This document shows positions 7,979-22,639 of a stretch of 31,432 nucleotides of DNA, in pieces (position 1 is the stretch's first letter; every line of letters begins with the position of its first letter). This DNA comes from a virus, in IMG/VR virus record IMGVR_UViG_3300021960_000317, positions 1 to 31,432 of that record. One strand, written 5' to 3'. A model generated the notes under the pieces. The model worked only from the letters and a program-made list of their open reading frames with translations. It was not told the DNA's origin and did no database searches. The translations under genes were made by a program, and so were the position numbers.

Positions 7979-8353
7979 TTAGTATACAGATTTATTTCTT
8001 TTTTTGCCGGCACGTTTAGCCATTTTTGATACTGTGTCTACTGGTGCTTGTCTGGCATCTGTGTTTGTTGTTGTAGATGTTTCATCTTCTTGATCGTCTG
8101 CTGTACGAAGTTCAACATAATCTTTATTGAAACTTTTTATTAGATTTTTTAAAGCTGGGTTATTTTCGTTTGCCGCAACAAGAGCATCATAATCAAAGTT
8201 CTTATCAGTGTTAAGTACCATGTTGATCAGACTTTGTGTTGAAATTTTTGGAGGTGTTTTTTTATCTTTGTATCTGTGACGAATCAATTCCAGAGCTGTT
8301 GTTAAACTTGCCTCTGGAGTATTTATATTGTCTGTGAATTCACCTAATCGCAC
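7979..8353 (-). CDS. Unknown basic/charged protein, possible head-core component
   Basis: 124 aa, not recognised. The N-terminal half is helical (EASLTTALELIRHRYK), a middle part reads ISTQSLINMVLNTD...FDYDALVAANENNPALKNLIK, and the C-terminal part is low-complexity acidic then strongly basic (KMAKRAGKKRNKSVY). It starts 2 nt after the stop of the 230-aa gene, so the two are co-translated. The pair could be head-assembly core or scaffold proteins, but this is inference from composition and company. Confidence 0.5.
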   Translation of the reverse strand: MRLGEFTDNINTPEASLTTALELIRHRYKDKKTPPKISTQSLINMVLNTDKNFDYDALVAANENNPALKNLIKSFNKDYVELRTADDQEDETSTTTNTDARQAPVDTVSKMAKRAGKKRNKSVY

Positions 8354-8355
8354 GA

Positions 8356-9048
8356 CTATCTTAATTCGCGACCAAGTTCTTCAGCACCACCAGTAGCGGC
8401 ATCTGTTGCCGCAAAGCCGTCTGTTTCGTCTTGATCTAGTTCACTTTCTTGCCCTGTAAGATCAACTTCAGCTTCATCCCCTGGCATTGCCATTGGGTTG
8501 TCTGTTTGTTCACCAGTTAGGATTTTAACACCGTTATCAACACCATCTCTAGCTGTCTGTAGTTGAACCATTAATGTATCTAATGTTGTACCAACAGCAT
8601 TTTTGAAACCTTCTGCTTGTTCTGATCCAATTTGATCTCTGATACTATCTAGTAACTGAGGAAGTTGTTCGTTTTGCATCTTACCACACTTCTCAATAGC
8701 GTCTTGTATTGAGTCAACCATGTCTTTAGCGGCTAATAAAACTTCAGCATTTCCAACTTCGCCTTCAGTGATAACTTCGACTTCTTCTGTTTGTGGAATA
8801 GCACGTTCTTGTAACCAACGATTCAGTCCTTCTTTTACAGTCAACAGTTCCATATAACGTGGATTTTTTTCTGCTGTATGTAAGTTAGTGCTATGACGTA
8901 TCTTGTCTAGATTAGCAGTAATTGTTTCGCTGAGCTTTTCAGCTTTTTCAACTGTTAGGCTATCGTAATTAATAGCAAAGCCGAATCGACTTTCTAACAC
9001 TTTGTTAATCTTTTTCGCTGATGTCATTGACATTTCTGCTAGTTTCAT
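8356..9048 (-). CDS. Possible prohead core/scaffold protein
   Basis: 230 aa, helical and acidic. Residues 12-90 are predicted helices (SAKKINKVLESRFGFAINYD...). Residues 100-180 are another helical block (DMVDSIQDAIEKCGKM), and the C-terminus is very acidic. A possible T4 gp21 protease site, I-T-E|G, occurs at residues 93-96 between the two blocks. Strong helicity, acidity and a cleavage site fit T4-like prohead core proteins, but I cannot name a homologue. The ribosome-binding site is AGGAAG. Confidence 0.45.
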   Translation of the reverse strand: MKLAEMSMTSAKKINKVLESRFGFAINYDSLTVEKAEKLSETITANLDKIRHSTNLHTAEKNPRYMELLTVKEGLNRWLQERAIPQTEEVEVITEGEVGNAEVLLAAKDMVDSIQDAIEKCGKMQNEQLPQLLDSIRDQIGSEQAEGFKNAVGTTLDTLMVQLQTARDGVDNGVKILTGEQTDNPMAMPGDEAEVDLTGQESELDQDETDGFAATDAATGGAEELGRELR

Positions 9049-9067
9049 GGTGTATCTTCCTATTAGT

Positions 9068-9556
9068 TTATTCTTTTATATATTTAGCCAAGTTTAAAGT
9101 TTTCTGTAATTCTTTCTTGACTATTTCAAGTCTATCCATGGTATTTGTGTATCTAGACGAGTAATAATCTTCTTTGAACTCGTCTCCTTTCTCAATTGCT
9201 TTTTTATATCCTGCTCGATATTGTAGAGCATCCATTTCTAATCTACCCAACAGTGTATCAGCATCTTTAATATTATCTGCTAACGTAGTTTCTTTCTGAT
9301 GTAAGGCTATACAATAAAATATAGCATCTTTGCGTGAGAAGAAATCAAATATATCAGAGCCTTTATCAACCACACGCCAACATCTTGCGTCAATTTTTAC
9401 AACCTTGTAATGGCCAACAAGTACATCCGACCCAATCTGATAGCAGAAAGGAAGTTCTCGAGAACTCCCAGATATACGTTCTAATTCTTGTTCCGTAAAT
9501 CTACGGATTTTTTCAAGATCGAATTTGTTAAATTTTCTTGTAATAGATTTTGCCAT
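9068..9556 (-). CDS. Conserved-looking hypothetical protein
   Basis: 162 aa, not recognised. The basic N-terminus (MAKSITRKFNKFDLEKIRRF) is followed by a beta-rich section (YQIGSDVLVGHYKVVKIDARCWRVVDKG) and then long helices (residues about 85-160). No catalytic motif or membrane segment is seen. Its start lies inside the end of the 67-aa gene (29-nt overlap) and its stop is 19 nt before the 230-aa gene. Confidence 0.55.
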   Translation of the reverse strand: MAKSITRKFNKFDLEKIRRFTEQELERISGSSRELPFCYQIGSDVLVGHYKVVKIDARCWRVVDKGSDIFDFFSRKDAIFYCIALHQKETTLADNIKDADTLLGRLEMDALQYRAGYKKAIEKGDEFKEDYYSSRYTNTMDRLEIVKKELQKTLNLAKYIKE

Positions 9557-9731
9557 CTTGTTTAGTTCTAAGTAACACGTCTTTGACAGTTAGCTGATGT
9601 GCGAGTAATTGCTCGCGGTCATTTAACTGAGTCTTTGCAACGGGCCCGTCGGCGAACTGTTCCAACAATGCTATTTCTTCGTTGGTTATTGGCAATAGTA
9701 ATTTATTATTTGTAAGTTCTACGATTTTCAT
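9528..9731 (-). CDS. Small hypothetical protein
   Basis: 67 aa: MKIVELTNNKLLLPITNEE at the start, then a helix with EQFADGPVAK, and a winged-helix-like end (LTVKDVLLRTKQDGKIYYK). A late-type promoter AATAAATA lies 28 bp upstream and an AGGAAGG ribosome-binding site precedes the ATG. The pattern loosely resembles a small DNA-binding fold, but no family is assigned. Confidence 0.5.
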   Translation of the reverse strand: MKIVELTNNKLLLPITNEEIALLEQFADGPVAKTQLNDREQLLAHQLTVKDVLLRTKQDGKIYYKKI

Positions 9732-9758
9732 AAAGTTAAGCCCTTCCTGGTTTAACTC

Positions 9759-9766
9759 TATTTATT
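9759..9766 (-). promoter_or_regulatory. Late-type promoter (AATAAATA)
   Basis: Seven of eight bases match TATAAATA on the minus strand. It overlaps the stop region of the XhlA-like gene and lies 28 bp before the ATG at 9731. Confidence 0.5.
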
Positions 9767-10028
9767 AGTTGAATATGCCGGCTTGTATAAAAGCGAACAC
9801 TGTCCCGGCTAATATACCGATAGCGGCAAGTGAGAATTTAAACCATTGACTGTAACGACTACGTTCGTTAGATGCCAGACAATTCTTGATATCAACCATA
9901 TGGGTTTCAAGTTTGTCCATTCTTTCTTCTAGACTGTCTAGTTTCTCTTCCAAGTTATTATACCTCTCGGCACATAACTCAACGTGGGCTTCTAGATTTA
10001 CTTTTTCAATTTTCGTAGGTGATGACAT
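9765..10028 (-). CDS. XhlA-like coiled-coil membrane protein
   Basis: 87 aa. Residues about 10-52 form a coiled coil (NLEEKLDSLEERMDKLETHM). A short polar link follows, then one transmembrane helix at about 62-84 (WFKFSLAAIGILAGTVFAF). The coiled-coil plus C-terminal single-helix layout is that of haemolysin XhlA-type phage proteins, which sit in the inner membrane and can assist holins. The gene has a long (about 100 nt) leader containing direct repeats. A lysis role is inference; no lysozyme gene is adjacent. Confidence 0.6.
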   Translation of the reverse strand: MSSPTKIEKVNLEAHVELCAERYNNLEEKLDSLEERMDKLETHMVDIKNCLASNERSRYSQWFKFSLAAIGILAGTVFAFIQAGIFN

Positions 10029-10050
10029 ACGTCGCCTTTCTCAATAGCGA

Positions 10051-10104
10051 TGCCATTTAATGTGCCTTAATGTTGTGCCTTAATGTGCCTTAATGAATGC
10101 CTAA
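10051..10104. repeat. TGCCTTAATG direct-repeat cluster in a leader
   Basis: Three perfect copies of TGCCTTAATG lie at 10063-10072, 10076-10085 and 10086-10095, the last two directly abutting. Degenerate copies flank them (TGCCATTTAATG at 10051, TGCCTAAG from 10098). A hairpin GTAACA-TTAT-TGTTAC lies beside them at about 10114-10129. The cluster sits in the predicted mRNA leader of the XhlA-like gene. Confidence 0.75.
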
Positions 10105-10134
10105 GCATCAAACGTAACATTATTGTTACAAATG

Positions 10135-10142
10135 TATTTATT
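10135..10142 (-). promoter_or_regulatory. Late-type promoter (AATAAATA), long leader
   Basis: Minus-strand AATAAATA, seven of eight bases of the late consensus, overlapping the stop of the 149-aa gene. The nearest downstream start is ATG 10028, so the leader would be about 100 nt and would include the repeat cluster and a hairpin. Confidence 0.45.
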
Positions 10143-10590
10143 ATTGCATTGATTTCATAAAGTATATATTTTTATATGTGCCAGATGTATAAAACAATGA
10201 GTGCGGAATAGTTGGCATTTGCTCATCTAAGTTTAAAATTGCAGGCACATTTACAAAATCTTTTTTAATAGTTCCATACGGATCATTATCTAACCTGTAA
10301 ACATCTTGGAATTCTATAGCAAAGCTGAAAGTCCAAACATTATATTTAAATCCCATTTCTCCTAGATAGTATGACCCAAATTTAAAACTGTCAATTTCTG
10401 TGTCTTGTATCTTATATACTCTGCCGATATCAAACAGTTGTGTTCTTAATCCTACTAGTTGACATACGGTCTCAAAATTACGCTGTTGATTTCTTTCTTT
10501 TGCTTTACTATCTGAATATTGTAGCACATTTGTTTTTGTGATATCAATCAGGCTGATGCATTGATGGTAATGTAAGGTTTGTTCTATCAT
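10141..10590 (-). CDS. Hypothetical protein, possibly virion-associated
   Basis: 149 aa, not recognised. It starts with LHYHQCISLIDITKTNVL, has a basic Gln/Arg stretch (SKAKERNQQRNFETV), and then a beta-rich half with many aromatic residues (KFGSYYLGEMGFKYNVWTF). No membrane segment or catalytic motif is evident. It follows the terminator of the 153-aa virion gene and is therefore a separate transcription unit. Confidence 0.5.
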   Translation of the reverse strand: MIEQTLHYHQCISLIDITKTNVLQYSDSKAKERNQQRNFETVCQLVGLRTQLFDIGRVYKIQDTEIDSFKFGSYYLGEMGFKYNVWTFSFAIEFQDVYRLDNDPYGTIKKDFVNVPAILNLDEQMPTIPHSLFYTSGTYKNIYFMKSMQ

Positions 10591-10625
10591 TGTAAAAGTA
10601 TTTAGTAATAGGTATTTTAGTCAAT

Positions 10626-10650
10626 AAAAAAGCACCCAAAGATGCTTTTT
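10626..10650 (-). terminator. Rho-independent terminator
   Basis: Minus-strand stem AAAAAGCA / TGCTTTTT with an 8-nt loop, followed by a T run. It lies 19 nt after the stop of the 153-aa gene at 10669. Confidence 0.8.
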
Positions 10651-10668
10651 ATATTTGTTGAGAGATAT

Positions 10669-11130
10669 TTAGACTGTGCCTACACTAGGACTTTCTATAA
10701 CTTGTGTACCACTCACGTCAACTGAGTTACCACCAGCTGATATAATTGATGTATTTGCATATGTAAACGTTGTTCCAGTTAAACGTGTTGCCGCTGTGTT
10801 AGCACCAATCTGTCTAACACGATGTTGTAAATCATCTGCATGTACAGTTGGATCCGTAATAACAAAAATATTTGCCTGATCTGCTACTGTTGACCCTACA
10901 GTCCAATATGCCAATGGAGCTACTTCGTCCACGATCGACTCAATGACACCTCCTGTATAACCAGAATCTGGAATTAAGTTGCCACGTGGTGTTGTGGTTG
11001 TTGTTGATCCGCCAGCATTAACTGTGATTACATGTAATTTTGAGTTAACTGGGTATAGTGTGCCTACCACTGTCTGCGTTCCGACTAGTGTATTGGCTTG
11101 ACCCAATTTCCATTTTTGTACTGTTGCCAT
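10669..11130 (-). CDS. Probable virion structural protein
   Basis: 153 aa, beta-rich and rich in Thr, Val, Gly and Ala. It begins MATVQKWKLGQANTLVG and contains a Thr5 run (GGSTTTTTPRGN). It has no cysteine, no catalytic motif and no signal peptide. It has its own late promoter, a GGAGAG ribosome-binding site and its own terminator, so it is monocistronic and probably made in large amounts. Head decoration or tail protein are both possible. Confidence 0.6.
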   Translation of the reverse strand: MATVQKWKLGQANTLVGTQTVVGTLYPVNSKLHVITVNAGGSTTTTTPRGNLIPDSGYTGGVIESIVDEVAPLAYWTVGSTVADQANIFVITDPTVHADDLQHRVRQIGANTAATRLTGTTFTYANTSIISAGGNSVDVSGTQVIESPSVGTV

Positions 11131-11161
11131 CTTTTATCTCTCCAAATTTGTTTCTTTTTAT

Positions 11162-11169
11162 TATTTATG
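11162..11169 (-). promoter_or_regulatory. Late-type promoter (CATAAATA)
   Basis: Seven of eight bases match the T4 late consensus on the minus strand, 32 bp before ATG 11130 of the 153-aa virion gene, with a GGAGAG ribosome-binding site between. Confidence 0.6.
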
Positions 11170-11194
11170 CAGACTAGTAGAAATTGAGAATAAA

Positions 11195-11220
11195 AAAAAG
11201 CACTCCGAAGAGTGCTTTTT
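11195..11220 (-). terminator. Rho-independent terminator with UUCG loop
   Basis: Minus-strand stem AAAAAGCACTC / GAGTGCTTTTT closed by a TTCG tetraloop (C-UUCG-G), continuing into a long T run. It lies 25 nt after the stop of the 120-aa gene at 11246. Confidence 0.9.
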
Positions 11221-11245
11221 GTGTTCAGTACATAAAGTACAGATC

Positions 11246-11608
11246 TTACATACCTTCTAATGTAGTAGGTTCTGTAACTGTTACAGTTTCTGAATCAGAT
11301 AGTGTAGCAACACCACCTGCAACTGTAAATGTAGCTGTATCAAGTACTTGTGCAATTAAGTCTGCTAATTGATTGATATCAAGTGCATGCTTATCAACTA
11401 CACAGTAGATTTCATTACCGTCTGCTTTAAAGTTAAAAGTACCAACTGCTGAACCAAATGCGTCTGAGATTTCAGCCGCTGCCGCATCTGATGCCGCTAC
11501 TGCTAAACCTGAACCACTTAATACAACTTTGTATACTGATTGTGCTGTATTTCTTTGGATTGTACCGCGAGCTACTGCTGTTGGGTTAGTTCTTGTAAAA
11601 ACTGCCAT
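11246..11608 (-). CDS. Probable virion structural protein
   Basis: 120 aa, Ala/Thr/Val-rich, starting MAVFTRTNPTAVARGTIQ. It has a helix-turn section (DINQLADLIAQVLD) between beta strands and a Thr/Glu-rich end. It contains one Cys. It has its own late promoter, AGGAG ribosome-binding site and a strong terminator, so it is a monocistronic late gene probably expressed at high level. Family not recognised. Confidence 0.6.
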   Translation of the reverse strand: MAVFTRTNPTAVARGTIQRNTAQSVYKVVLSGSGLAVAASDAAAAEISDAFGSAVGTFNFKADGNEIYCVVDKHALDINQLADLIAQVLDTATFTVAGGVATLSDSETVTVTEPTTLEGM

Positions 11609-11717: not shown

Positions 11718-12275
11718 TTACTTTAATTTGCTTTTAAAGTGAACAAAAATGTCAGCTTGATGTGCTGTACTCTGTAGTACGTTCTTTAACGCCCTTTTAG
11801 TTACGTTTTTTTCTGTTTTACTCGGTAAATGCCAATCAGTTACATTACGTCTTGCTGAACTTAGCTCGCCGCTACTGATTTTAAAAGTATCTTGTAGTTT
11901 TTGGAATAATGCTCTGTCTAGTCCTCGATCTTTCCGGCCGCCTAGTATTTCTCTAAAGTATCTTCTTATAGCTAGTACAGGTACTGATATACTAGCATTA
12001 CTTTTTATTCTTGCAGAATACTTGTCTTGATTATTTAACACAGCTAATAGGTTATGCAAATCTGTAGCACTGGTACGCATAGCATCAAAGTTGGTGTAAT
12101 CCATAGTGTCACTTACATATTTTTTAGCCCACTGTGGATCTTCTTGACGTATAATTTCTAACATCAGAAACATCGTGAATGCCATCTTTGCAATATCATT
12201 TGCACTCTTTCCTCTGAGAGTGTCACTGCCCCTGAACATTCTTGCTTCTTTTAATTCTTCAATAAAGTCAAACAT
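11718..12275 (-). CDS. Unknown protein with capsid-targeting-like N-terminus
   Basis: 185 aa, helical, family not recognised. The N-terminus MFDFIEELKEARMF contains L8-K9-E10|A11, which fits the T4 gp21 protease rule (Leu/Ile-x-Glu|Ala/Gly), close to the start as in T4 internal proteins. The body includes DIAKMAFTMFLMLEIIRQEDPQW and a basic region SVPVLAIRRYFREILGGRKDRG. It is the last gene of the late operon from 14185, starts with a TAATG overlap and is followed by a terminator. Virion-internal location is inference. Confidence 0.5.
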   Translation of the reverse strand: MFDFIEELKEARMFRGSDTLRGKSANDIAKMAFTMFLMLEIIRQEDPQWAKKYVSDTMDYTNFDAMRTSATDLHNLLAVLNNQDKYSARIKSNASISVPVLAIRRYFREILGGRKDRGLDRALFQKLQDTFKISSGELSSARRNVTDWHLPSKTEKNVTKRALKNVLQSTAHQADIFVHFKSKLK

Positions 12276-13501
12276 TATGCTTTACCTTGGAAATTAGTTC
12301 TTGAAAATTCTAAACGATCAACTAATTTTATAGCATTACCATCATGTCCGATAGCAACAAAGCCTTCAGGTGTAGTAACTCTATACCCATCATTAGTTTT
12401 TTGGAAAGTACCGATCCCTTCTACTTGTTGTAGTTTACGTAATAGCATTGTTTTCATTTCAATAAATCTTTTATACACTGCCATGATACCAGTTAATGAA
12501 TTAGCATGATCTGCTATCCATTGTTCTTTTTCTTTAATTTTAGTTAATCTGTTCTGTGCGGCTCTGTCAGTAATATTGTCTATATCTTTAGTCATTACAT
12601 CACGATAATGTGCAACAAAATCTTTTAGAAATGCTGTTGGTTCTGTTACTTGTGTTCCTGATCTAACCATTTTATTAACAAAAGGTTTAATATTACGGGC
12701 AAAGTCTTTGTTGTCTAATATGATATCAAACCTTGACTTACCAATCTTCTCAATGGTTTTATAAGTGCTGTTTAACATAGCTTTAATTTTTTGATTTTCG
12801 CTTTGTGTGAGGCTAGCTATACCAGTATAATCTTTGTATGTAGCATCATCAAACCATACGTCTTTAGTTTGATTCAATCCTTGTATATTAACTATGAATG
12901 ACGCTTTCATGTCTTCGAGTGAGTCGCCTTCGTAGCTGGTATGGAACACGATACCTAACTTAGCTTGTGAAATACGCTTACCTATTTTTTGATCAACAGG
13001 TACAGCATAAGTTATAGTGTTAGGAGTAAACACATAGCACTGCTCGTTGTTGACTTCTTCCTGTGTTACATCACCTTCTGTAAACATTAGGTCGCCTTGC
13101 ATTACTCCACCTATGCCTAATTTTTTAAGATGCTGTAGTGCTGACTGTAGTTTTACTGCTAGCTCGGGCTTATCACTGTAGAATTTAGCAATGTCTTTTG
13201 TGGTTTTACACAGCTTAGGTTGTTTTGAAAAAGCTGACTTAGTGCCAACAAAGAAACGACTGTCTTTGGGATCAACACCACATACTACTGCTGGTGACCC
13301 GTCCCACTTTACAGTTAGCTTACTGGTAGTTCCTGTGCCTTCTGATAACATGTTATGTAAACTTTCTACATAATCCAATGCACTCATAGCACCATCATAT
13401 CCACCGTTAAAAACCAAGTCTTCAAGATGTTCAAGGTGTGTATTCTTAGCTTCAGCTAATAAAAATTTTGGTGTTTCTTTTTTAATTTCAAATAGTTTCA
13501 T
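12275..13501 (-). CDS. Nucleotidyltransferase/ligase-like protein (DUF6267-like)
   Basis: 408 aa. Ligase-superfamily motifs occur in order: KWDGSP with Lys65 (motif I, the AMP/GMP-accepting Lys), GVMQGDLMF at 132-140 (motif III), IVFHTSY at about 184-190, PEGFV at 378-382 (motif IV) and AIKLV with Lys392 (motif V). Between motifs III and IV is a helical insert of about 180 residues. I believe it belongs to the phage family called DUF6267, from memory and unchecked. The N-terminal peptide ends L15-A16-E17|A18, a likely gp21 cleavage site, so it may be packaged in the capsid. It could join or adenylylate nucleic acid; the substrate is unknown. Confidence 0.62.
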   Translation of the reverse strand: MKLFEIKKETPKFLLAEAKNTHLEHLEDLVFNGGYDGAMSALDYVESLHNMLSEGTGTTSKLTVKWDGSPAVVCGVDPKDSRFFVGTKSAFSKQPKLCKTTKDIAKFYSDKPELAVKLQSALQHLKKLGIGGVMQGDLMFTEGDVTQEEVNNEQCYVFTPNTITYAVPVDQKIGKRISQAKLGIVFHTSYEGDSLEDMKASFIVNIQGLNQTKDVWFDDATYKDYTGIASLTQSENQKIKAMLNSTYKTIEKIGKSRFDIILDNKDFARNIKPFVNKMVRSGTQVTEPTAFLKDFVAHYRDVMTKDIDNITDRAAQNRLTKIKEKEQWIADHANSLTGIMAVYKRFIEMKTMLLRKLQQVEGIGTFQKTNDGYRVTTPEGFVAIGHDGNAIKLVDRLEFSRTNFQGKA

Positions 13502-13947
13502 TATAGTACGTCTGCTGGCTCTTGAACGACATAGCCTTGGTCAGCGGCTTTGTCATAGTAATCATTAAATTTTTGTATATTTGCTGGTTGTTTAACTCTA
13601 TACAGTCTAGTCTCTTTGTCTCGCTGAACCTGCCCTCTAAGACTTTTTGGTAGCTTATTTAAATACCAGCCATCACGCCTTACAATAATATCAACATCAT
13701 CAGCTCTGAATAAAGGATGAGGGAATCTGTATTGTGTAGTATTATCTAGAGTAGCATTAACATCGTAGTTAGGATTTCCTGAGACTGTTTGTTTTGTTGC
13801 ATCTACTTCTCCAGAATCGACATCTTGAATAGCTTTTTGTTTTTGTTTGATATTTTTACTTTTATCTGGACTGTAGACTGCTTGACCGACACCTTTTGCG
13901 ATGCTTTTTAATAGGCCAGCTTCGTGTATTAGTTCTTTAATCTTCAT
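13501..13947 (-). CDS. Probable capsid internal protein (T4 IP-like leader)
   Basis: 148 aa. The N-terminus MKIKELIHEAGLLKS closely mimics the capsid-targeting peptides of T4 internal proteins (form MKTYQEFIAEA), with the gp21 cleavage site I7-H8-E9|A10. The mature part is basic (KQKQKAIQD), then Asn/Asp-rich, and ends with a folded-looking section (DVDIIVRRDGWYLNKLPKSL). It overlaps both neighbours (11 nt upstream, TAATG downstream). It is probably packed in the head and delivered with DNA; this is inference from the leader. Confidence 0.55.
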   Translation of the reverse strand: MKIKELIHEAGLLKSIAKGVGQAVYSPDKSKNIKQKQKAIQDVDSGEVDATKQTVSGNPNYDVNATLDNTTQYRFPHPLFRADDVDIIVRRDGWYLNKLPKSLRGQVQRDKETRLYRVKQPANIQKFNDYYDKAADQGYVVQEPADVL

Positions 13948-14185
13948 CTTTAACTTTCCTTATACCTCTAGAGAACTTCTTTGGATCTTGACCTTTGATT
14001 GCATTCAAGAAGCGATTTTCTAACTTTGTTGCAGTAACGCCATCGTAGCTTTCGTGTATATGTTTTATAATGTTGATCGCACTTTTGATCACATTATTGG
14101 CACGACTTTCTAGGAGGTTTTCTTTGTCCTTGTGGATTAGAAGTTCGTCTAGCTCTGTTAATATACTACGGGTTTTTTTCTGCAC
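13937..14185 (-). CDS. Small helical protein, first gene of the late operon
   Basis: 82 aa, starting with GTG at 14185 after a GGAG ribosome-binding site 7 nt upstream. It is highly charged and helical (ELDELLIHKDKENLLESRANNVIKSA), with no Cys. A late promoter lies 21 bp upstream. It heads the operon of four genes ending at 11718. Family not recognised. Confidence 0.55.
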   Translation of the reverse strand: MQKKTRSILTELDELLIHKDKENLLESRANNVIKSAINIIKHIHESYDGVTATKLENRFLNAIKGQDPKKFSRGIRKVKDED

Positions 14186-14205
14186 TGTATTACTCCAATT
14201 TAGTA

Positions 14206-14213
14206 TATTTATC
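14206..14213 (-). promoter_or_regulatory. Late-type promoter (GATAAATA)
   Basis: Minus-strand GATAAATA just after the stop of the radical SAM gene (14219) and 21 bp before the GTG at 14185. The leader would be about 14 nt and contains GGAG. Confidence 0.65.
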
Positions 14214-14218
14214 GAAAA

Positions 14219-15748
14219 CTAATTAATCAATTTCCTACATTCTTCTAATTCTGGGACATAATCTACTAACTTAATATTTCTTGATTTATCTAATGTGTCA
14301 TTGAATTCAAAGAAGGTCTTTAATGTGTCTATGTTACAAGAATAGTTAGGATCAGAATAATGATCAAAGATAGTATCAATCATCGACTTATTATCTCTGG
14401 CATCAGTGTAATACATCTTGGTCTGTTTGATTTTGGTCATCGAGTCAATTACTAATGCAGGATTAGGATGATTAAGTATAGTAATGCTATCGTCATTCCA
14501 GTAGGTCTGTTGTAGAAACATAGTGCTATCTGGAAACTCCCTATCAACAAACTCGTAGAGCAAGTGCAAATTCGTTATGTTCCAAATTCCCGGAATAGCT
14601 TCGAATGAAATATAAAAACCTGCATCCTTTAATCTATGTATGTTTTTTACTACCGTATCCCAGGTTGATCCCCACCTAATATAATCATTTACTTTTCCAT
14701 ATCCGTCAATGCTTACACTGAGATTTATATCATCAAACTTACTCAGTATGTTAATTAATTTATCACTGATTTTCTGTGCGTTTGTGTTTAGAGTGATATC
14801 TAAATCCGTTCTTCCTAGATCGACACATTTTTCTAAAAATTCATAGAACTCCGGTATTATTGTAGGCTCTCCGCCTGTTGAGTAAACTCTTGCACCAGGT
14901 AATAGATTTGGAACATCAATATGATCATAGGTCCCCCATATATGGGGTCTAGACATGAATGGGTGTTCGATACCTATTGTTTTAAATTCTTTATCTAGTA
15001 AATGACTGTTATGCGGAGCACACATTCTACACGCTAGATTGCATTTATTACTAGGTCTAACTTCATAGAAGACAGGAATTTTAAATTTGTTTAAATCTTC
15101 TATAGATTGTATATTCAACTTAGCCGCCCAGTCCATGGATTCGTGAACTCTAGTGCTGGTAAAACCCATGTCTTGTTCCTTATAGCAATTCTGACACTTT
15201 TCACTATATTCTCCTGCCAACATCTTTCGTCGAAGTTCAGTAAATTCTGGATCTGTCTCCCAATCATCGATGTCTTTTAATTTTTTAATAGGATGTTCTA
15301 CTCCAGTCTTGCTACAGATATAAACATTCCCAAATTCTTCTAATAGATGTATCCATGGATAAACACAGAATCTTTTATTTTTTTCTACTAGTTCGCTCAT
15401 AAACACGATACTTTTCGATGATTCATTATTTCTAAATTCAGTCTGGTATCCTTGTTTTTCTAATTCAACCATTATCTTATATGTTGATAACAAAGATTTC
15501 CAATGGTTCCATTCCTTATAGGGTTGATCAAGCATTTTAATTACATCAAAATTTTTGGCTATTTCGATTACTCCGCCAGACCAAATGTCTGTAATGCTAG
15601 AGTGATAGTACCCTGGCTCTTTAGGGATAAAGGTTGAGTCAATGATTAAGCCGTGATTTATTGTTTTGTCTTTACTAGCAAGTTTGTTAGTATCATTGTC
15701 GGTGATTGTAGTGTTTGTGCCTAAACACAGTATTTTTTTATTAAACAT
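14219..15748 (-). CDS. Radical SAM protein with auxiliary-cluster-like domain
   Basis: 509 aa. The radical SAM motif C236-x3-C240-x2-C243 (NKCNLACRMC) binds the catalytic [4Fe-4S] cluster, and STGGEP is the SAM-binding GGE motif. A domain before the barrel (residues about 125-200) has FCVYPWIHL, Cys145, CQNCY (Cys185/188) and STR, as in twitch/SPASM-type auxiliary-cluster proteins. Residues 1-115 are an extra N-terminal domain. It overlaps the helicase stop (TAATG), so it is made with the replication genes. Reaction and substrate are unknown; peptide or nucleotide modification are possibilities. It would need Fe-S clusters, which fits the iscU/iscA-like genes. Confidence 0.85.
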   Translation of the reverse strand: MFNKKILCLGTNTTITDNDTNKLASKDKTINHGLIIDSTFIPKEPGYYHSSITDIWSGGVIEIAKNFDVIKMLDQPYKEWNHWKSLLSTYKIMVELEKQGYQTEFRNNESSKSIVFMSELVEKNKRFCVYPWIHLLEEFGNVYICSKTGVEHPIKKLKDIDDWETDPEFTELRRKMLAGEYSEKCQNCYKEQDMGFTSTRVHESMDWAAKLNIQSIEDLNKFKIPVFYEVRPSNKCNLACRMCAPHNSHLLDKEFKTIGIEHPFMSRPHIWGTYDHIDVPNLLPGARVYSTGGEPTIIPEFYEFLEKCVDLGRTDLDITLNTNAQKISDKLINILSKFDDINLSVSIDGYGKVNDYIRWGSTWDTVVKNIHRLKDAGFYISFEAIPGIWNITNLHLLYEFVDREFPDSTMFLQQTYWNDDSITILNHPNPALVIDSMTKIKQTKMYYTDARDNKSMIDTIFDHYSDPNYSCNIDTLKTFFEFNDTLDKSRNIKLVDYVPELEECRKLIN

Positions 15749-17139
15749 TATTCAGCTTTCTTAAGTCCAGCTAACATATTCTTTAGCTTGCTCGAGTCTA
15801 CTTGAGCATTTACTTTACTAGCTTCTTGTGGTGGTGTTACTGTCGCCTGACTTTTTATCTGCCCCATGATGTTTGAACTACCTTGGCCTTGCCTGTTTTC
15901 TTCTTGGGCATCTTCCCCTGGATCTGTAATACGTAAACTGTTAAGATCAAATTCCAAATCAACTTTCATGCCAACACCAGAACTTGATCTAGTTTTCATT
16001 AACTGTATTTGATATCTTCCACGTTCTCGCATTGCACGACTTGTAAAAATACCAAACACATTATCAGCAGTATTAATTTTACTTAATCCGCCTGCAATGT
16101 GACTATGGTCAAATTCAATTTCTTCTACTGCTCCACGATTCAACTGCGATGCTGTAATCATTAATATGTTAAATTCTCTTGCCAAGTTACGTAGTTCTTC
16201 TGACACATACTTGTCTTTAACAAACAAGTCATTTGGTGATACTTTAGCACTCACAGGCATAACTAAATCTAAATAGTCAACCATGATAAAGTCGACTTTC
16301 ATTCCTGTCTGTACCTGTAATTCTTTGAGATAACTTCTAATTTGATTTACATTTGATTGTGCTGGCATATACTTGATACGTAACTTACCTGACTTCTTGC
16401 CAACCATCTTAACTTTCATTTCAACTGTGTCCATATCTTTAAACACTTCTTTTGTTGAAACATTAGCAACCATTGAATCCATACGCATAGCACACAAGCC
16501 TTCGCTCAATTCCAATGTTAAGAATACTCCATTGAGTCCTTGTTGTATCCAATTAATTGCTATGTTCTGCATAAACAAACTCTTGCCACTGCCAGAGCCA
16601 CCTGCAAAGATGTTTAGTTCTCCTCTGTTCATACCACCAAACAATCTTTTATCTAATGTTGGCCATCCTGTACTTAACTGTCCGTTGTTATCTTTAATTG
16701 CTAACAGTCTTGCTCTTGGATCTTCAAAATAGTCTGTACCCATGTCTTTGGTCAAACTAATTTGCACAGCATCTTTAATTAATTTTTCTACTGGATCATA
16801 CTCGCCTTTCTCAAGTAAGTCTGCTGACTTAAGAATAGCACGTTCTAGTTCTTTCTGTCTGGTGAAGCCTTCGAACTCAACCATAAACCAGTCATAGTGG
16901 TCTTCAGTTAGATCTTTGATAGGGTTCAGCTCTACCTTAGTTACTGCTAGTACCTGTTCTGCTGTTGGCAATGTTTTATGTTTATCTGCATGCTCTAATA
17001 AAAACTTAGCCGCTTCTCTATAGTTTCTATCAAAATTTTCTGGATTATAGATGTTCTGCACACGCACAAAACTCTGTGCATCCTGCATCATCATTTCTAA
17101 AAATAGTTTCTGTAGTTCTGGTGTGTATTCTTTTGTCAT
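15748..17139 (-). CDS. 41: Replicative DNA helicase (gp41-like, DnaB family)
   Basis: 463 aa. It has an N-terminal helical domain (1-135) and a RecA-type core with Walker A GGSGSGKS at 180-187, LTLELSEG (motif 1a region), IMVDYLDLV (Walker B), ITASQLNRG (sensor/H3-type Gln) and SRAMRERGRY near the Arg finger. This is the hexameric helicase that unwinds the phage replication fork and partners with the primase at 19987. It has its own perfect sigma70 promoter and no ribosome-binding site; the radical SAM gene is translated from the same mRNA. Confidence 0.93.
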   Translation of the reverse strand: MTKEYTPELQKLFLEMMMQDAQSFVRVQNIYNPENFDRNYREAAKFLLEHADKHKTLPTAEQVLAVTKVELNPIKDLTEDHYDWFMVEFEGFTRQKELERAILKSADLLEKGEYDPVEKLIKDAVQISLTKDMGTDYFEDPRARLLAIKDNNGQLSTGWPTLDKRLFGGMNRGELNIFAGGSGSGKSLFMQNIAINWIQQGLNGVFLTLELSEGLCAMRMDSMVANVSTKEVFKDMDTVEMKVKMVGKKSGKLRIKYMPAQSNVNQIRSYLKELQVQTGMKVDFIMVDYLDLVMPVSAKVSPNDLFVKDKYVSEELRNLAREFNILMITASQLNRGAVEEIEFDHSHIAGGLSKINTADNVFGIFTSRAMRERGRYQIQLMKTRSSSGVGMKVDLEFDLNSLRITDPGEDAQEENRQGQGSSNIMGQIKSQATVTPPQEASKVNAQVDSSKLKNMLAGLKKAE

Positions 17140-17148
17140 GTATACTTA

Positions 17149-17177
17149 ATTATACAACTTTTCCTTTATGGTGTCAA
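17149..17177 (-). promoter_or_regulatory. Consensus sigma70 promoter for the helicase gene
   Basis: Minus strand TTGACA (17177-17172), 17-bp spacer, TATAAT (17154-17149): a perfect consensus. Nine nt (TAAGTATAC) separate the -10 from ATG 17139, so the mRNA leader is predicted to be 0-3 nt. The -35 lies inside the last codons of SGNH-like gene C. Confidence 0.9.
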
Positions 17178-17867
17178 TGATTGATGTTGCTCATTTATTT
17201 GTTTTATTTTGTGTAAAATAACTTTTGCTACCGTTGCGTGTGTCTTTTTTCCAAAATGTCCAGTTATACCTGTCTGATCTTGATTAGGAAAATTAATAAA
17301 AATTTTATTTGGGTCATTAACTATACTGTCCTGTATGTTATGCACATGCCGATCCCAAAGAAGCCAATACCATTTTTTGTTAGCTAATAACGATTGTAAT
17401 TTACTAAATGTTTTTTTAAAGTTTTTTAAATTATCTTCAAAATCAAACTCATAGTATGTATCTATACCCGTAGCACGTCTATGGAGATCTATAAATTGTA
17501 TAAAAAATGTGTCTATCTGAGCATCGGTCTTTAAGACTTCTTCAACTTGCTCTACTATGACTTCATTACTTGCTCGATAACATCCTTGGCTGAAATTCCA
17601 GCAAGTTGCATCTAATTTTTTTGATACAATTTGAGCAAAACTTTCTTCTAACTCAATGCTGTGTCCATTAACGATGCTAGACCCAAACCAGGCAAATGTT
17701 TTATTTTTATACGTATCAGCAATTACATATTCAATATTGCTTCTATACCCTAGTTCATTGAATGAATAGTTAACTTCGCCTCTATTATCAGACGCATAAC
17801 ATGTCATTGATTCTCCACGCAACTCATATTGACTAGGTAAAGGTGTCGGTAAAATGTTTTTTGTCAT
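17166..17867 (-). CDS. SGNH-hydrolase-like protein C
   Basis: 233 aa. It shares the array pattern: ASDNRGEVNYSFNELGYRSN, then AWFGSSIVNGHSIE (block I with Ser), CWNFSQGCYRASN (block II) and TGHFGKKTHATVAK (block V His). A central helical part (LKNFKKTFSKLQSLLANKKW) precedes WYWLLWDRHV. It is the third of three adjacent SGNH-like genes, joined to the second by an ATGA overlap. The expected chemistry is ester hydrolysis or acyl transfer; substrate is unknown. Confidence 0.65.
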   Translation of the reverse strand: MTKNILPTPLPSQYELRGESMTCYASDNRGEVNYSFNELGYRSNIEYVIADTYKNKTFAWFGSSIVNGHSIELEESFAQIVSKKLDATCWNFSQGCYRASNEVIVEQVEEVLKTDAQIDTFFIQFIDLHRRATGIDTYYEFDFEDNLKNFKKTFSKLQSLLANKKWYWLLWDRHVHNIQDSIVNDPNKIFINFPNQDQTGITGHFGKKTHATVAKVILHKIKQINEQHQSLTP

Positions 17868-18448
17868 ACTAGTTTCTTTATTAAAAATTTAGATAATAGC
17901 TGATGAGTTTTTGGCCCAGCTTGAGTCGTACTGGCAGACTTGTCTATAAAAGGGGGACTCACCAAATCAAAATACCCTGATAATATTTTGTCTTTTTCTA
18001 CTAAACTATCAATTAATATATGGACACTATCTGGATATAATTTCTTAGTCTTCTCAACAAATGTATAAACAGGAACTGTGCATAAAGGGTCATATTTGTC
18101 ACTGACCCATTGTACTACTATTGGAATATTTTTTACTTCTTGATGCACTAAAGAAATAGTGTCAAAAAAATCTTGATTATTATATTTAACACAGGCATAA
18201 CTGCAATTCCAAATCTTTAAATTTTTTTCTTTGGCCACCACATGCGGAAAAGTTTGTTCTATAAGTACGCCCACGCCAAATGGTGTGCTACCACCAAAAA
18301 ATACTAAGTCAGGTGTATAATTAAAATCCACCTCACTTCGAAATCCCTGAGCGTTGAATCGATAAGTCACCGTACCAGATTGATCTTGACCGTAACGATC
18401 TACTACTCGATTAGAAAAATTTCTTTGCTCTTGTATTATGTTAATCAT
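17864..18448 (-). CDS. SGNH-hydrolase-like protein B, catalytic His replaced
   Basis: 194 aa. The N-terminal pattern YGQDQSGTVTYRFNAQGFRSE matches genes A and C. Block I is VFFGGSTPFGVGV (Ser kept) and block II is IWNCSYACVKYNN. In block V the neighbour's THPGPKTH becomes TTQAGPKTH: the expected catalytic His is Gln and the Pro is Ala. It may be inactive or may bind rather than cut. It overlaps A and C by ATGA junctions and is co-translated with them. Confidence 0.65.
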   Translation of the reverse strand: MINIIQEQRNFSNRVVDRYGQDQSGTVTYRFNAQGFRSEVDFNYTPDLVFFGGSTPFGVGVLIEQTFPHVVAKEKNLKIWNCSYACVKYNNQDFFDTISLVHQEVKNIPIVVQWVSDKYDPLCTVPVYTFVEKTKKLYPDSVHILIDSLVEKDKILSGYFDLVSPPFIDKSASTTQAGPKTHQLLSKFLIKKLV

Positions 18449-19008
18449 AAATTATCCACACGATTAAATAGCAAGTCCAAGGTCTTTGCCCATACTTTGT
18501 GTGTCTTTGGTCCTGGATGTGTTCTACTAACGTCGGAATCTATAGACGGCATTAAATGCACTGCTCCTGGATATTTCTTTTTAGTTTGAGAAACGTTAAT
18601 AATATTCTTATCTAATGAATCGACATAGGTTATTAACTTACTAATATCTTCTTGTCCTTCTCTTTCTACCCAGAAAAATGCGATTTTAACTTCCTTATTA
18701 TATAATGGAGAACTTAGGAAATTTTCTAGATTGGTCACACTGTCTTTATTTAGGTATTCTCCAGCTAGCCCAAAATTTTGTGAATTATTAAATTGACTCG
18801 ATAGTATCTGGTCTTCATTTACTCCAATCCCAAAAATAGAACTATTTCCAAAGAAAGCATATGTAGGACAATCAGAATAGTTATTTTTATTTCGAAATCC
18901 CTGGGCATTTATGGAGTATGTTATCAACCCAGTGTTATCGAGTCCCCAAGTTTTAACTGTCTGCCCTCTAATGTTGTATAATGGAGCATTACAATTATCG
19001 ATCGGCAT
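18445..19008 (-). CDS. SGNH-hydrolase-like protein A
   Basis: 187 aa. N-terminal WGLDNTGLITYSINAQGFRNK is the shared array motif; block I is AFFGNSSIFGIGV (Ser56) and block V is SRTHPGPKTHKVWAKTL (His164). The usual DxxH Asp is not at -3 (Ser there), although an Asp lies at -5. It overlaps the primase stop by 14 nt and gene B by 4 nt, so it is expressed with the primase. Substrate is unknown; virus surface sugars or nucleotide modifications are both possible. Confidence 0.68.
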   Translation of the reverse strand: MPIDNCNAPLYNIRGQTVKTWGLDNTGLITYSINAQGFRNKNNYSDCPTYAFFGNSSIFGIGVNEDQILSSQFNNSQNFGLAGEYLNKDSVTNLENFLSSPLYNKEVKIAFFWVEREGQEDISKLITYVDSLDKNIINVSQTKKKYPGAVHLMPSIDSDVSRTHPGPKTHKVWAKTLDLLFNRVDNL

Positions 19009-20029: not shown

Positions 20030-22639
20030 CTACGATATTCTGAACCACTCGCTTACTGTGGAACTATAAACGTAGCTAACCTTGGTGTCAGTGACAAGAG
20101 CAATGTTCGATTCTGGAGCTGTTACTGATACCCATGGTGACAGTACTCGGAATGTTTCAACAGCTACATTTGATGATATCGAAATTACTGTTCCGTCAAC
20201 GTTAGCATTAGGTAGTTTAACATCAGCCCAAAAACTAACTGGTGGTACAGCAGGTGTAGGAGTAATCAATACATGCGTAGTATGTACATTAGCTGTGATT
20301 GCTAGGTTAGCAGTTGGCAGATAATGCTGTAGTGTAACTTTCGAATCACCGGAATCAACATATCCTTTCATTGCAACATTGGCTGTTGTAACCTTGTTAT
20401 CTGTATAGCCAATTTGACCTATATTGGCAGTTAGTACTTTGTTGTCTGTATAACCAATTTGCCCGATATTGGCAGTTAGTACCGTGTTGTTTGTATAACC
20501 AATTTGCCCGATATTGGCTGTATTAACTCTTGATGTGATAACACTGTCTTGTACAGTGTTCGCGAAATCAGTATACCCTTTGATTCCGATATTAGCTGTT
20601 GTAACTTTGTTGTCAGTGTAACCTATCTGCCCGATGTTGGCTGTGTTTATTGCTGTGGTTACTCCTGTAATAGCATCTGCTTGTATAGTATTGGCAAAAT
20701 CAACATACCCTTTCAGCCCAATATTTGCTGTTTCTACTTCTGAAGTAATAGCACCGGCTTGTATAGTGTTAGCTGTGGTAACTTGATCATTTATGTACCC
20801 AATAATTCCAACGTTGGCTGAGTTTAACCCTGTTACAATCTGGTCAGATTGTACTGTGTTAGCAAAGTTAATATACCCCAGTATACCAATGTTAGCTGTT
20901 AGAACTGCATTATCTGTGTAGCCTATTTGCCCAATGTTGGATATATTAATTTGATCGAGAGTATAACCTATTTGTCCAATGTTAGCAGTTGTAACTTTAT
21001 TGTCTGTGTAACCGATCTGTCCAAGATTTGCTGTTGTAACTTTGTTGTCTGTGTAGCCTATTTGTCCAATATTTGCTGTGTTTACTCTAGTAGTAATAAC
21101 ACTGTCTTGTACAGTATTAGCAAAATCAGTGTAACCTTTCATACCCACATTAGCTGTTGTTATTGCTGTGGTTAGTGTAGTGTATGCGTTAGCATCATCG
21201 TTGATTGCCGCGGCTATCTCTACCAATGTATCTAGTGCCGCAGGTGCCGCACCTATCAATGAAGTAAATTCGCTGTCAACGTATCCTTTCATACCGATGT
21301 TAGCTGTTGTTACTTGATTGCCTATGTATCCAATGATAGCTACATTAGAAGCACTAATTTGTTGTGATTGGATAGTGTTGGCTAGACCTACGTAACCTTT
21401 TACTCCAACATTGGCTACTTGTATTTGTTGTCCTATATACCCAATGGTCCCAATGTTAGATATATTAATTTGATTGAGAGTATAACCTATCTGTCCAATG
21501 TTAGCTGTTGTAGTTGAGTTATCAACATATCCTCGCATGCCAATATTAGCTGTTCCTACCACTGAAGTAATAACATTGTCTTGTACAGAGTTAGCAAAGT
21601 CAATATATCCTTTTACACCAATATTAGATATATTAATTTGATCGAGAGTATAACCTATCTGTCCGATGTTAGCTGTTGTAGTCGAGTTATCAACATATCC
21701 TGTCATACCAAGGTTGCCAGAATCGACTTTACCAATCATGCCAATGTTAGCTGTGTTTACTCTAGCAGTAATAACTCCGTCTTGTACTGTGTTGGCAAAG
21801 TCAGTGTAACCTATTTGCCCAACGTTAGCTGTGTTTACTCTAGCAGTAATAACTCCGTCTTGTACTGTGTTGGCAAAATCAACATATCCTTTTAATCCTA
21901 CATTTGCCTGAGTTACTGTTTCGTTTGTAAATCCTACCTGAGCAGAGTTAGCTATTGATATATGTTGTGTTATATATCCTACTTGTACAGTATTAGCAAG
22001 ATCAACATACCCTTTCATTCCTACGTTGGCAGTTAGTACTTTGTTATCTGTATAACCTATTTGCCCAACGTTTGCTGTGACAATCGATGTTGCAACTTTG
22101 TTGTCTGTGTACCCTATCTGACCAATATTAGATATGTTAATTTGATCGAGAGTATAACCTATCTGGCCGATGTTGGCATTGGTCACGGTTGCTATGGTGC
22201 CACTATATGTTGGTAAAAATGATGTTACATTGGCATTGCCGTATCCAGGTACAGCAATACTGTCGACATATCCTTTCATTCCAACATTGGATGATGTTAT
22301 ACTGTTACTAAGTGAAATATATACATTAACATCATCATTGATAGAGTCTGCTATCTCACCAAGTGTATCTAATACTCCAGGTGCTGTTCCGATTAACGTA
22401 GCGATATTAGCCGATACTGCATCGTCAACATATCCTCGCATGCCAACATTAGCTACTGCAACATTACTACCGCTTTGTGCGGCATTAGGTAATAGTAATC
22501 CTCCAGCAGTACTACCATCATGTATTCTGATACTGTCTGCTGTGGTGTCGATTGTTATCTCACCGACTGGTCCTGTATATCCTGCACTTACTGTGGCATT
22601 CCCACGTTTGTGCAGTATCTGTACGTTAGCTACTGCCAT
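20030..22639 (-). CDS. Large repetitive tail fibre
   Basis: 869 aa. Residues 1-55 form the fibre N-terminal domain (VQILHKRGNATVSAGYTGPV, GEITIDTTADSIRIHDG). Residues about 155-765 consist of dozens of short units of the form AN(I/V)G-x-x-GY(T/V)D with linkers NKV, FANTVQ and LDQINIS. About 14 copies read GQIGYT. Residues 770-869 are a beta-rich C-terminal domain ending in VSEWFRIS. Regular short repeats suggest a long trimeric shaft with a receptor-binding or trimerising tip. The start overlaps the BppU-like gene (TAATG). Confidence 0.8.
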   Translation of the reverse strand: MAVANVQILHKRGNATVSAGYTGPVGEITIDTTADSIRIHDGSTAGGLLLPNAAQSGSNVAVANVGMRGYVDDAVSANIATLIGTAPGVLDTLGEIADSINDDVNVYISLSNSITSSNVGMKGYVDSIAVPGYGNANVTSFLPTYSGTIATVTNANIGQIGYTLDQINISNIGQIGYTDNKVATSIVTANVGQIGYTDNKVLTANVGMKGYVDLANTVQVGYITQHISIANSAQVGFTNETVTQANVGLKGYVDFANTVQDGVITARVNTANVGQIGYTDFANTVQDGVITARVNTANIGMIGKVDSGNLGMTGYVDNSTTTANIGQIGYTLDQINISNIGVKGYIDFANSVQDNVITSVVGTANIGMRGYVDNSTTTANIGQIGYTLNQINISNIGTIGYIGQQIQVANVGVKGYVGLANTIQSQQISASNVAIIGYIGNQVTTANIGMKGYVDSEFTSLIGAAPAALDTLVEIAAAINDDANAYTTLTTAITTANVGMKGYTDFANTVQDSVITTRVNTANIGQIGYTDNKVTTANLGQIGYTDNKVTTANIGQIGYTLDQINISNIGQIGYTDNAVLTANIGILGYINFANTVQSDQIVTGLNSANVGIIGYINDQVTTANTIQAGAITSEVETANIGLKGYVDFANTIQADAITGVTTAINTANIGQIGYTDNKVTTANIGIKGYTDFANTVQDSVITSRVNTANIGQIGYTNNTVLTANIGQIGYTDNKVLTANIGQIGYTDNKVTTANVAMKGYVDSGDSKVTLQHYLPTANLAITANVHTTHVLITPTPAVPPVSFWADVKLPNANVDGTVISISSNVAVETFRVLSPWVSVTAPESNIALVTDTKVSYVYSSTVSEWFRIS
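20345..22175. repeat. Coding tandem repeats of the fibre shaft
   Basis: DNA-level repetition underlies the shaft. Variants of a unit encoding ANIGQIGYTDNKV and of a longer unit encoding NTANIG...GYTDFANTVQDSVIT recur throughout. Some neighbouring copies are nearly identical (for example the units around 21750-21880), while others differ at synonymous sites. This points to repeated duplication with divergence. The plus-strand open frames here are by-products of the repeats. Confidence 0.85.

Follow-up and report, generated by a model that had tools for sequence, protein, structure and literature searches.

Why do three consecutive genes of an uncultured giant phage encode proteins that each begin with a short peptide ending in what looks like a T4 head-protease site? 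The genes lie in IMG/VR record IMGVR_UViG_3300021960_000317, a 31,432-base virus fragment that was analyzed over its full length (the window) and carries T4-type genes on its minus strand (ribonucleotide reductase genes, identified by sequence, UvsW, a gp41-like helicase and a gp61-like primase); its source is an uncultured T4-related giant-phage lineage of the T4/gp23 type. Behind the helicase and a radical-SAM gene, four overlapping minus-strand genes run head to tail with overlaps of 1-11 nucleotides (nt), and the last three of them encode the proteins in question. We consider it likely that these genes form a T4-type capsid-packaging operon, whose products would be packaged, cut and carried with the DNA.

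Three leaders in one putative late operon

In T4, the first ten residues of the internal protein IPIII suffice for targeting, and the gp21 protease cuts after L/I-x-E (PMC9026906); the phage injects its internal proteins, which inhibit particular GmrSD restriction enzymes (PMC12373910). An earlier note on this DNA had reported three consecutive proteins with an L/I-x-E↓A site (↓, cleavage site) near the N-terminus; all three are open reading frames (ORFs) on the minus strand, and their sites were confirmed. The range that it proposed includes a fourth gene (13937-14185) as well and stops, at 14213, precisely on a promoter-like box. The operon, its leaders and the box are as follows (aa, amino acids; pI, isoelectric point).

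13937..14185, minus strand: operon gene one, an 82-aa protein (PHROG 11854, 'virion structural protein'; homologue of PA5oct gp259)
13501..13947, minus strand: protein 1, basic and 148 aa long, the product of a hypervariable slot and a predicted internal protein (139 aa and pI 9.2 once mature)
12275..13501, minus strand: protein 2, a 408-aa DUF6267 protein (PF19782, domain from residue 20; K65-W-D-G, E379-G-F-V, K392; mature form basic, pI 8.5)
11718..12275, minus strand: protein 3, a 185-aa basic helical protein (homologue of Atu_ph07 gp064; mature form pI 10.2)
13921..13947, minus strand: leader MKIKELIHE, residues 1-9 of protein 1 (N-terminus MKIKELIHEA; site I7-H8-E9↓A10), predicted cut before Ala10; a similar start in nearly all relatives from the slot
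13451..13501, minus strand: leader MKLFEIKKETPKFLLAE, residues 1-17 of the DUF6267 protein (N-terminus MKLFEIKKETPKFLLAEA; site L15-A16-E17↓A18), predicted cut before Ala18; site in 79/79 relatives
12246..12275, minus strand: leader MFDFIEELKE, residues 1-10 of protein 3 (N-terminus MFDFIEELKEA; site L8-K9-E10↓A11), predicted cut before Ala11; site in 9/9 members
14206..14213, minus strand: late-type promoter box GATAAATA, ~20 nt upstream of operon gene one

How surprising is such a trio? Among the 43 window ORFs considered, none beyond these three places the E of an [LI]xE[AGS] site in residues 1-20; LLES comes closest, at residues 19-22 (612-878) and at residues 24-27 (13937-14185). The site has a background of ~4.6% among non-head T4 proteins, which gives a chance of ~0.004 for a run of three in 43 genes, so on this figure alone the trio would be suggestive; the probability that the window's only three matches are adjacent among 43 genes is 0.003, and both figures are post hoc and modest. 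What makes the leader observation solid is its conservation across relatives. A leader codon string was guessed and searched for exactly in the record itself; it had no match, which is uninformative.

Is the operon expressed late? T4 late promoters read TATAAATA, and the operon box resembles them. An ATAAAT box stands ~28 nt before the orthologues of the 13937 gene in 46/46 distinct upstream sequences, the DNA farther upstream being different, and [TG]ATAAATA occurs in 26/46 of these sequences vs 2.1% of control stretches. In the window as a whole, TATAAATA is not enriched and counts of GATAAATA are near chance; the box is therefore informative only through its position-specific conservation upstream of the 13937 gene. 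On G001, a 329-kb contig of relative locus L075, similar boxes precede the portal gene, other virion-type genes and many others. The late expression that the earlier note proposed is supported, as far as a conserved ATAAATA-type box before the operon can indicate it.

Conservation of the leaders, and the proteins behind them

The leader conservation across homologues that the earlier note had put forward as a check was found for proteins 2 and 3 and, with exceptions, for the slot gene. For DUF6267, 80 IMG/VR loci were fetched, 79 with a complete start, and L15-x-E17-[A/S]18 is present in all 79; since the leader peptide MKLFEIKK was one of the six search patterns, this sample is biased toward leader-bearing members. 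An alignment of 31 sequences, divergent ones included, has E17 throughout, L15 in 29 and S/A18 in 30, with positions 12 and 16 varying. The fold does not account for this conservation because the Pfam domain begins at residue 20 and residues 1-23 are disordered in the structure model, with very low predicted local distance difference test (pLDDT) scores.

What does this leader carry? K65-W-D-G68 and K392 are each invariant in 31/31 DUF6267 sequences, and E379-G-F-V is present in 30/31; we take K-x-D-G, E-G-x-V and K, assigned by eye, to be motifs I, IV and V of covalent nucleotidyltransferases. The DUF6267 protein has no significant match to a known ligase family, Pfam returns DUF6267 alone, and a profile search against PDB sequences yields just insignificant YehD matches; the structure model, of moderate quality (pLDDT 72), has nick-sealing RNA ligases as its top Foldseek PDB matches, at E 0.27 or worse. 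Given the invariant or near-invariant KxDG, EGFV and K motifs, it is reasonable to call this protein ligase-like, in keeping with the ligase-like enzyme that had been proposed among the operon products. In relative locus L074 (3549-3836; also in L073 and L075), the DUF6267 leader (MKLFEIKKETPKWLLAE) fronts a protein of 95 aa whose body is unrelated, and the neighbouring gene encodes a full DUF6267 with a diverged leader (MQLHEIQNKSPSWMLVES); this looks like leader reuse or a broken duplicate.

In protein 3, [LI]8-x-E10-[A/S]11 is found in 9/9 aligned members, and a related site lies at residues 21-25 of both the Atu_ph07 homologue (27% identical; LNE↓S) and the product of the Phosso gene at the equivalent position (LEE↓S). 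The protein 3 model is helical, with low pLDDT at residues 2-18, and has no fold match in the PDB; neither protein 1 nor protein 3 matches a known family in Pfam or PHROGs. Among 25 families defined by window genes in the relatives' contigs, a conserved site is seen in just two (at 8/8 and 54/57), with the next-best family at 24% and most at 0, and these two are the families of DUF6267 and protein 3; the slot gene, poorly captured by this test, was handled separately.

The slot gene lies, in relatives, between the 13937 gene and DUF6267; it overlaps the former by a fixed 11 nt, encodes 107-760 aa and is absent or doubled in some genomes. With starts picked from the 11-nt overlap alone, 49/50 distinct sequences begin MK, nearly always as MKI[NK]E[IVL]xxE↓[A/G/S]; 47 of these 49 have E at residues 8-10, 41 have [LIVM]xE[AGS] starting in residues 2-18, and 32 have the strict form. 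Synonymous variation is seen in the codons for E9 and for the A/G/S residue, so it is the leader residues that are kept and not a DNA element. Are the bodies behind these leaders wholly unrelated? This idea was dropped, as single linkage joins 47/50; the cargo, judged by its sequence, varies under one leader type, partial relatedness signifying variation and not full independence. Protein 1 itself has no tblastn match in the phage collection. The longest slot proteins (661-760 aa; L019:3740-6004, L016:1191-3380, L071:1921-3906 and L024) carry several L-x-E↓A/G/S sites in residues 1-40 and have no Pfam match.

Relatives: protease, leader patterns and virion proteomes

Would these leaders be cut? 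Both a gp21 protease and gp23 are present in 5/5 complete relatives, namely G001 (gp21 by PF03420, E = 5e-28), Atu_ph07, PA5oct, Phosso and Vibrio phage 2.275.O; neither was found on four incomplete relative contigs. The plain [LI]xE[AGS] motif was rejected as a genome-wide predictor because it is too loose: it picks 13/141 proteins in T4, seven of which are established gp21 substrates (internal, core or shell proteins), and reaches p = 0.054 for proteins detected by mass spectrometry (MS) in PA5oct. Conservation, synteny and a stricter start pattern were therefore used. The plain motif is enriched in the Atu_ph07 syntenic region (5/21 vs 27/822, p = 0.0008).

The stricter pattern, M[KR]x(2,3)[EDQ][FILVM][ILVM]xE, has the shape of a T4 internal-protein start. 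It picks IPII and IPIII only in 100 kb of T4; two proteins in 250 kb of PA5oct, both detected by electrospray ionization tandem MS (ESI-MS/MS) and one of them (MKINDIITEG) encoded between portal and protease; the virion NMNAT only in 40 kb of S-SCSM1; and 11 protein starts vs 0/235 internal MK/MR positions in G001. These matches are not fully independent because the pattern was framed after T4, window and relative leaders had been seen. It misses the leader M[KR]WxQLxE of a protein array in Atu_ph07; thus, leader cores differ between lineages. Six of the eleven G001 matches cluster in a second leader operon (206495-212633, equivalent to L118:16495-19878 and L119:875-3633), whose different proteins start MRIIDLLTEA, MRAREFIIEG, MRAIEFIIED, MRAREFILEG, MRFKEILNEV and MRFKEILREY and mostly have no Pfam match.

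Are the homologues found in virions? The syntenic order in PA5oct is primase, helicase, gp259 (the 13937 homologue), gp258, gp257 and then a run of MS-detected proteins; gp258 and gp257 were both detected by ESI-MS/MS as virion-associated. In Atu_ph07, coding sequences 31-76 include 29 MS-identified virion proteins, two of them predicted structural beforehand (PMC6102473); this stretch spans the syntenic genes gp054-gp068, and the MS figure is a total for the region. From these proteomes, the three window proteins are probably present in virions. The Atu_ph07 genes run from gp064 (the protein 3 homologue) through gp063 to a paralogue array, gp062 to gp054 (L090:9835-16567), the members of which start M[KR]WxQL[TNI]E, keep R44, S90 and E228 and resemble a multiplied T4 Alt; Pfam gives no match for them, and from the R44/S90/E228 triad only they may be ADP-ribosyltransferase-like.

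Further evidence comes from cyanophages, in several of which DUF6267 adjoins a cytidylyltransferase/NMNAT. This enzyme has been reported in the virions of S-SM1 (T4-GC190, PMC3037559), S-SZBM1 (PMC9146016), S-SCSM1 (PMC9602691) and S-CREM2 (PMC10665884), and leader-bearing forms are found at five relative loci; those detected in virions are encoded beside DUF6267 or in late blocks of a related kind.

L136:2692-3789: cytidylyltransferase/NMNAT-like, P-RSM6, MITFHVFITE↓A
L137:6191-7279: cytidylyltransferase/NMNAT-like, S-SZBM1, MRFRQFIIE↓A, virion-reported
L138:28820-30049: cytidylyltransferase/NMNAT-like, S-SCSM1, MKSFLQFLKE↓A, virion-reported
L139:8609-9469: cytidylyltransferase/NMNAT-like, S-CREM2, MKNFSSFLTE↓A, virion-reported
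L088:2173-2763: cytidylyltransferase/NMNAT-like, leader MRAKEILRE↓A

The DUF6267 proteins of S-SZBM1 and S-CREM2 are leaderless and absent from the virion lists of those phages; a Vibrio phage copy of DUF6267, encoded outside the cluster, likewise has no leader. In the few cases for which both are known, leader and virion presence thus coincide, subject to the carry-over that the authors themselves caution about.

The surroundings of the operon contain two further landmarks.

15748..17139, minus strand: gp41-type DnaB-like helicase, which marks the syntenic block on its upstream side
8356..9048, minus strand: gene downstream in the late block (PHROG 14154, 'virion structural protein')

Behind the syntenic operon of PA5oct, gp254-gp243 (L089:12470-15442 and onward) form a run of MS-detected proteins; therefore, much of window 7979-11608 is probably virion protein as well. 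The radical-SAM gene (14219-15748) sits between helicase and operon, a place taken by other gene(s) in relatives. Between primase and helicase (17166-19008), three consecutive small proteins share a 'G-x-S-x-x-x-G' type stretch and are possibly paralogous SGNH-like hydrolases, and an 869-aa fibre-like protein (20030-22639) is built of repeats like TANIGQIGYTDNKV.

Proposed mechanism, its rivals and known systems

How might the operon work? Late transcription from the GATAAATA promoter would yield three basic proteins with removable leaders of 9, 17 and 10 residues; the leaders would dock the proteins in the prohead core, where a gp21-type protease would cut after L/I-x-E, freeing the mature proteins in the head, and DNA would then be packed around them. 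The mature proteins would probably exit with the DNA when a host is infected and be active during the first minutes. The DUF6267 protein, as a ligase-like nucleotidyltransferase, could repair nicked incoming DNA or cleaved RNA, either of which would fit, and the slot protein may work in IP-like fashion, countering host defences or helping takeover. Targeting and cutting of the three products are strongly suggested by the comparisons above, and packaging together with cleavage appears quite likely; injection is plausible, the least secure step, and is argued from the enzymatic cargo in relatives.

Several observations weigh against this scheme. The window fragment holds neither gp21 nor gp23. 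The leaders are T4-like, as the earlier note had it, in that the gp21 consensus L/I-x-E is kept, but they are not uniform: the nearest relatives of protein 1 (L001/L002) read MKIKELTNE↓A, the E is followed by V, R, Q or D in some slot proteins, and 8/49 distinct slot proteins fail even the relaxed consensus. The DUF6267 family at large includes leaderless forms, many cyanophage members among them. In PA5oct, the plain motif is borderline (5/89 MS-detected vs 4/255 other proteins), gp256, a KIDG protein in the syntenic place, is unmarked as MS-detected, and the proteins recorded by MS take in metabolic enzymes, ribonucleotide reductase being a likely case of carry-over, so that carry-over is possible.

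Could the proteins be cut and enter the virion as structural or scaffold-like components of head or neck, and not as injected effectors? This explanation, which departs from the scheme above at the injection step only, is a doubtful but possible one. It draws on the PHROG 'virion structural' annotation of the 13937 gene and of downstream block genes and on the head-core proteins of PA5oct and G001, which bear similar leaders; it sits poorly with the ligase-type motifs of DUF6267, with the cytidylyltransferases and ADP-ribosyltransferase-like paralogues among the leader-bearing proteins of relatives, and with the hypervariability of the slot gene, as expected of host-interaction factors. Alternatively, the conserved N-terminal peptides could be uncut docking motifs to the virion or another complex (e.g., the replisome), the E-A/S/G being part of the binding motif. 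M-K-L/I-x-E-I/L at the extreme N-terminus is indeed conserved as strongly as the L-x-E site, and the small residue after E is missing in some slot proteins. However, the conserved positions of the second half are exactly the gp21 consensus, with x free and A/S/G interchangeable; the spacing to the folded domain varies; complete relatives have the protease; and in T4 one peptide does both targeting and cleavage, all of which makes uncut docking improbable. That the sites are chance matches to a short degenerate motif, found by looking and present in the first 20 residues of ~4-5% of unrelated phage proteins, is very improbable given 79/79 and 9/9 conservation vs near zero in control families, and is effectively refuted for proteins 2 and 3.

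If the products are packaged, cut and carried with the DNA, how does the operon compare with known systems? IPI, IPII and IPIII of T4 share with it a ~10-20-residue leader ending in L/I-x-E↓A/S (T4 MKTYQEFIAE↓A and MKTFKEFTSTTTPVSTITE↓A), basic products, a leader kept while the body varies, late expression and gp21 in the lineage. Unlike in T4, the window leader cores are MKI[NK]E.., MKLFEIK.. and MFDFIQEL.., the protein 1 leader is one residue shorter, the cargo includes a conserved 391-residue enzyme-like domain, and the operon stands behind the gp41 helicase in an uncultured jumbo-phage lineage; T4 internal proteins are packaged, and the window products are predicted to be. T4 Alt, an injected capsid ADP-ribosyltransferase, is likewise a head-borne enzyme made with a short propeptide at its N-terminus (PMC9026906), and the leader-bearing ADP-ribosyltransferase-like array of Atu_ph07 lies beside the protein 3 homologue; yet DUF6267 motifs are ligase-type, and the Alt start MELITELFDE is outside the A/G/S form of the site. 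The cyanophage transferase (T4-GC190) next to DUF6267 (T4-GC71) has the same neighbourhood behind gp41, T4-like leaders and virion detection, but there the leader is on the transferase and not on DUF6267, and the papers report virion detection with no leader or protease site. In phiKZ and SPN3US, head proteins that are ejected into the host are first processed by a gp21-like protease, which recognizes a short motif and cleaves on the C-terminal side of Glu (PMC9026906, PMC5694885); these phages belong to another jumbo-phage group, with other proteins, while the window lineage is T4/gp23-type.

The operon would thus represent the T4 internal-protein system in a variant form that carries enzymes. 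A T4 review already suggests the capsid-targeting sequence as a general loading route for various proteins in T4-like phages (PMC9026906); searches of open-licence literature, a scope outside which most subscription papers fall, turned up no description of leaders like these for DUF6267 or for jumbo or marine phages. Does the leader travel more widely? We lean, by a little, toward a portable head-export leader of the T4 superfamily (hydrophobic core, L/I-x-E↓small residue), jumbo and marine lineages included, that would load many unrelated enzymes for injection: ligase-like, NMNAT/cytidylyltransferase, ADP-ribosyltransferase-like and others.

What would this mean for these phages? The authors who found NMNAT-like enzymes in cyanophage virions could not separate them from carry-over (PMC10665884, PMC9602691); a leader would supply a mechanism for their presence. 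The leader pattern would predict head-packaged, possibly injected proteins of uncultured jumbo phages, and, if the signal is portable, a genome sequence would by itself be enough to list injected effectors. The slot proteins are candidate anti-defence factors because T4 internal proteins are specific restriction inhibitors (PMC12373910). Finally, hundreds of phage records contain DUF6267, a family to which no function is attached; the scheme would tell where its members act in this lineage, namely in the incoming virion.

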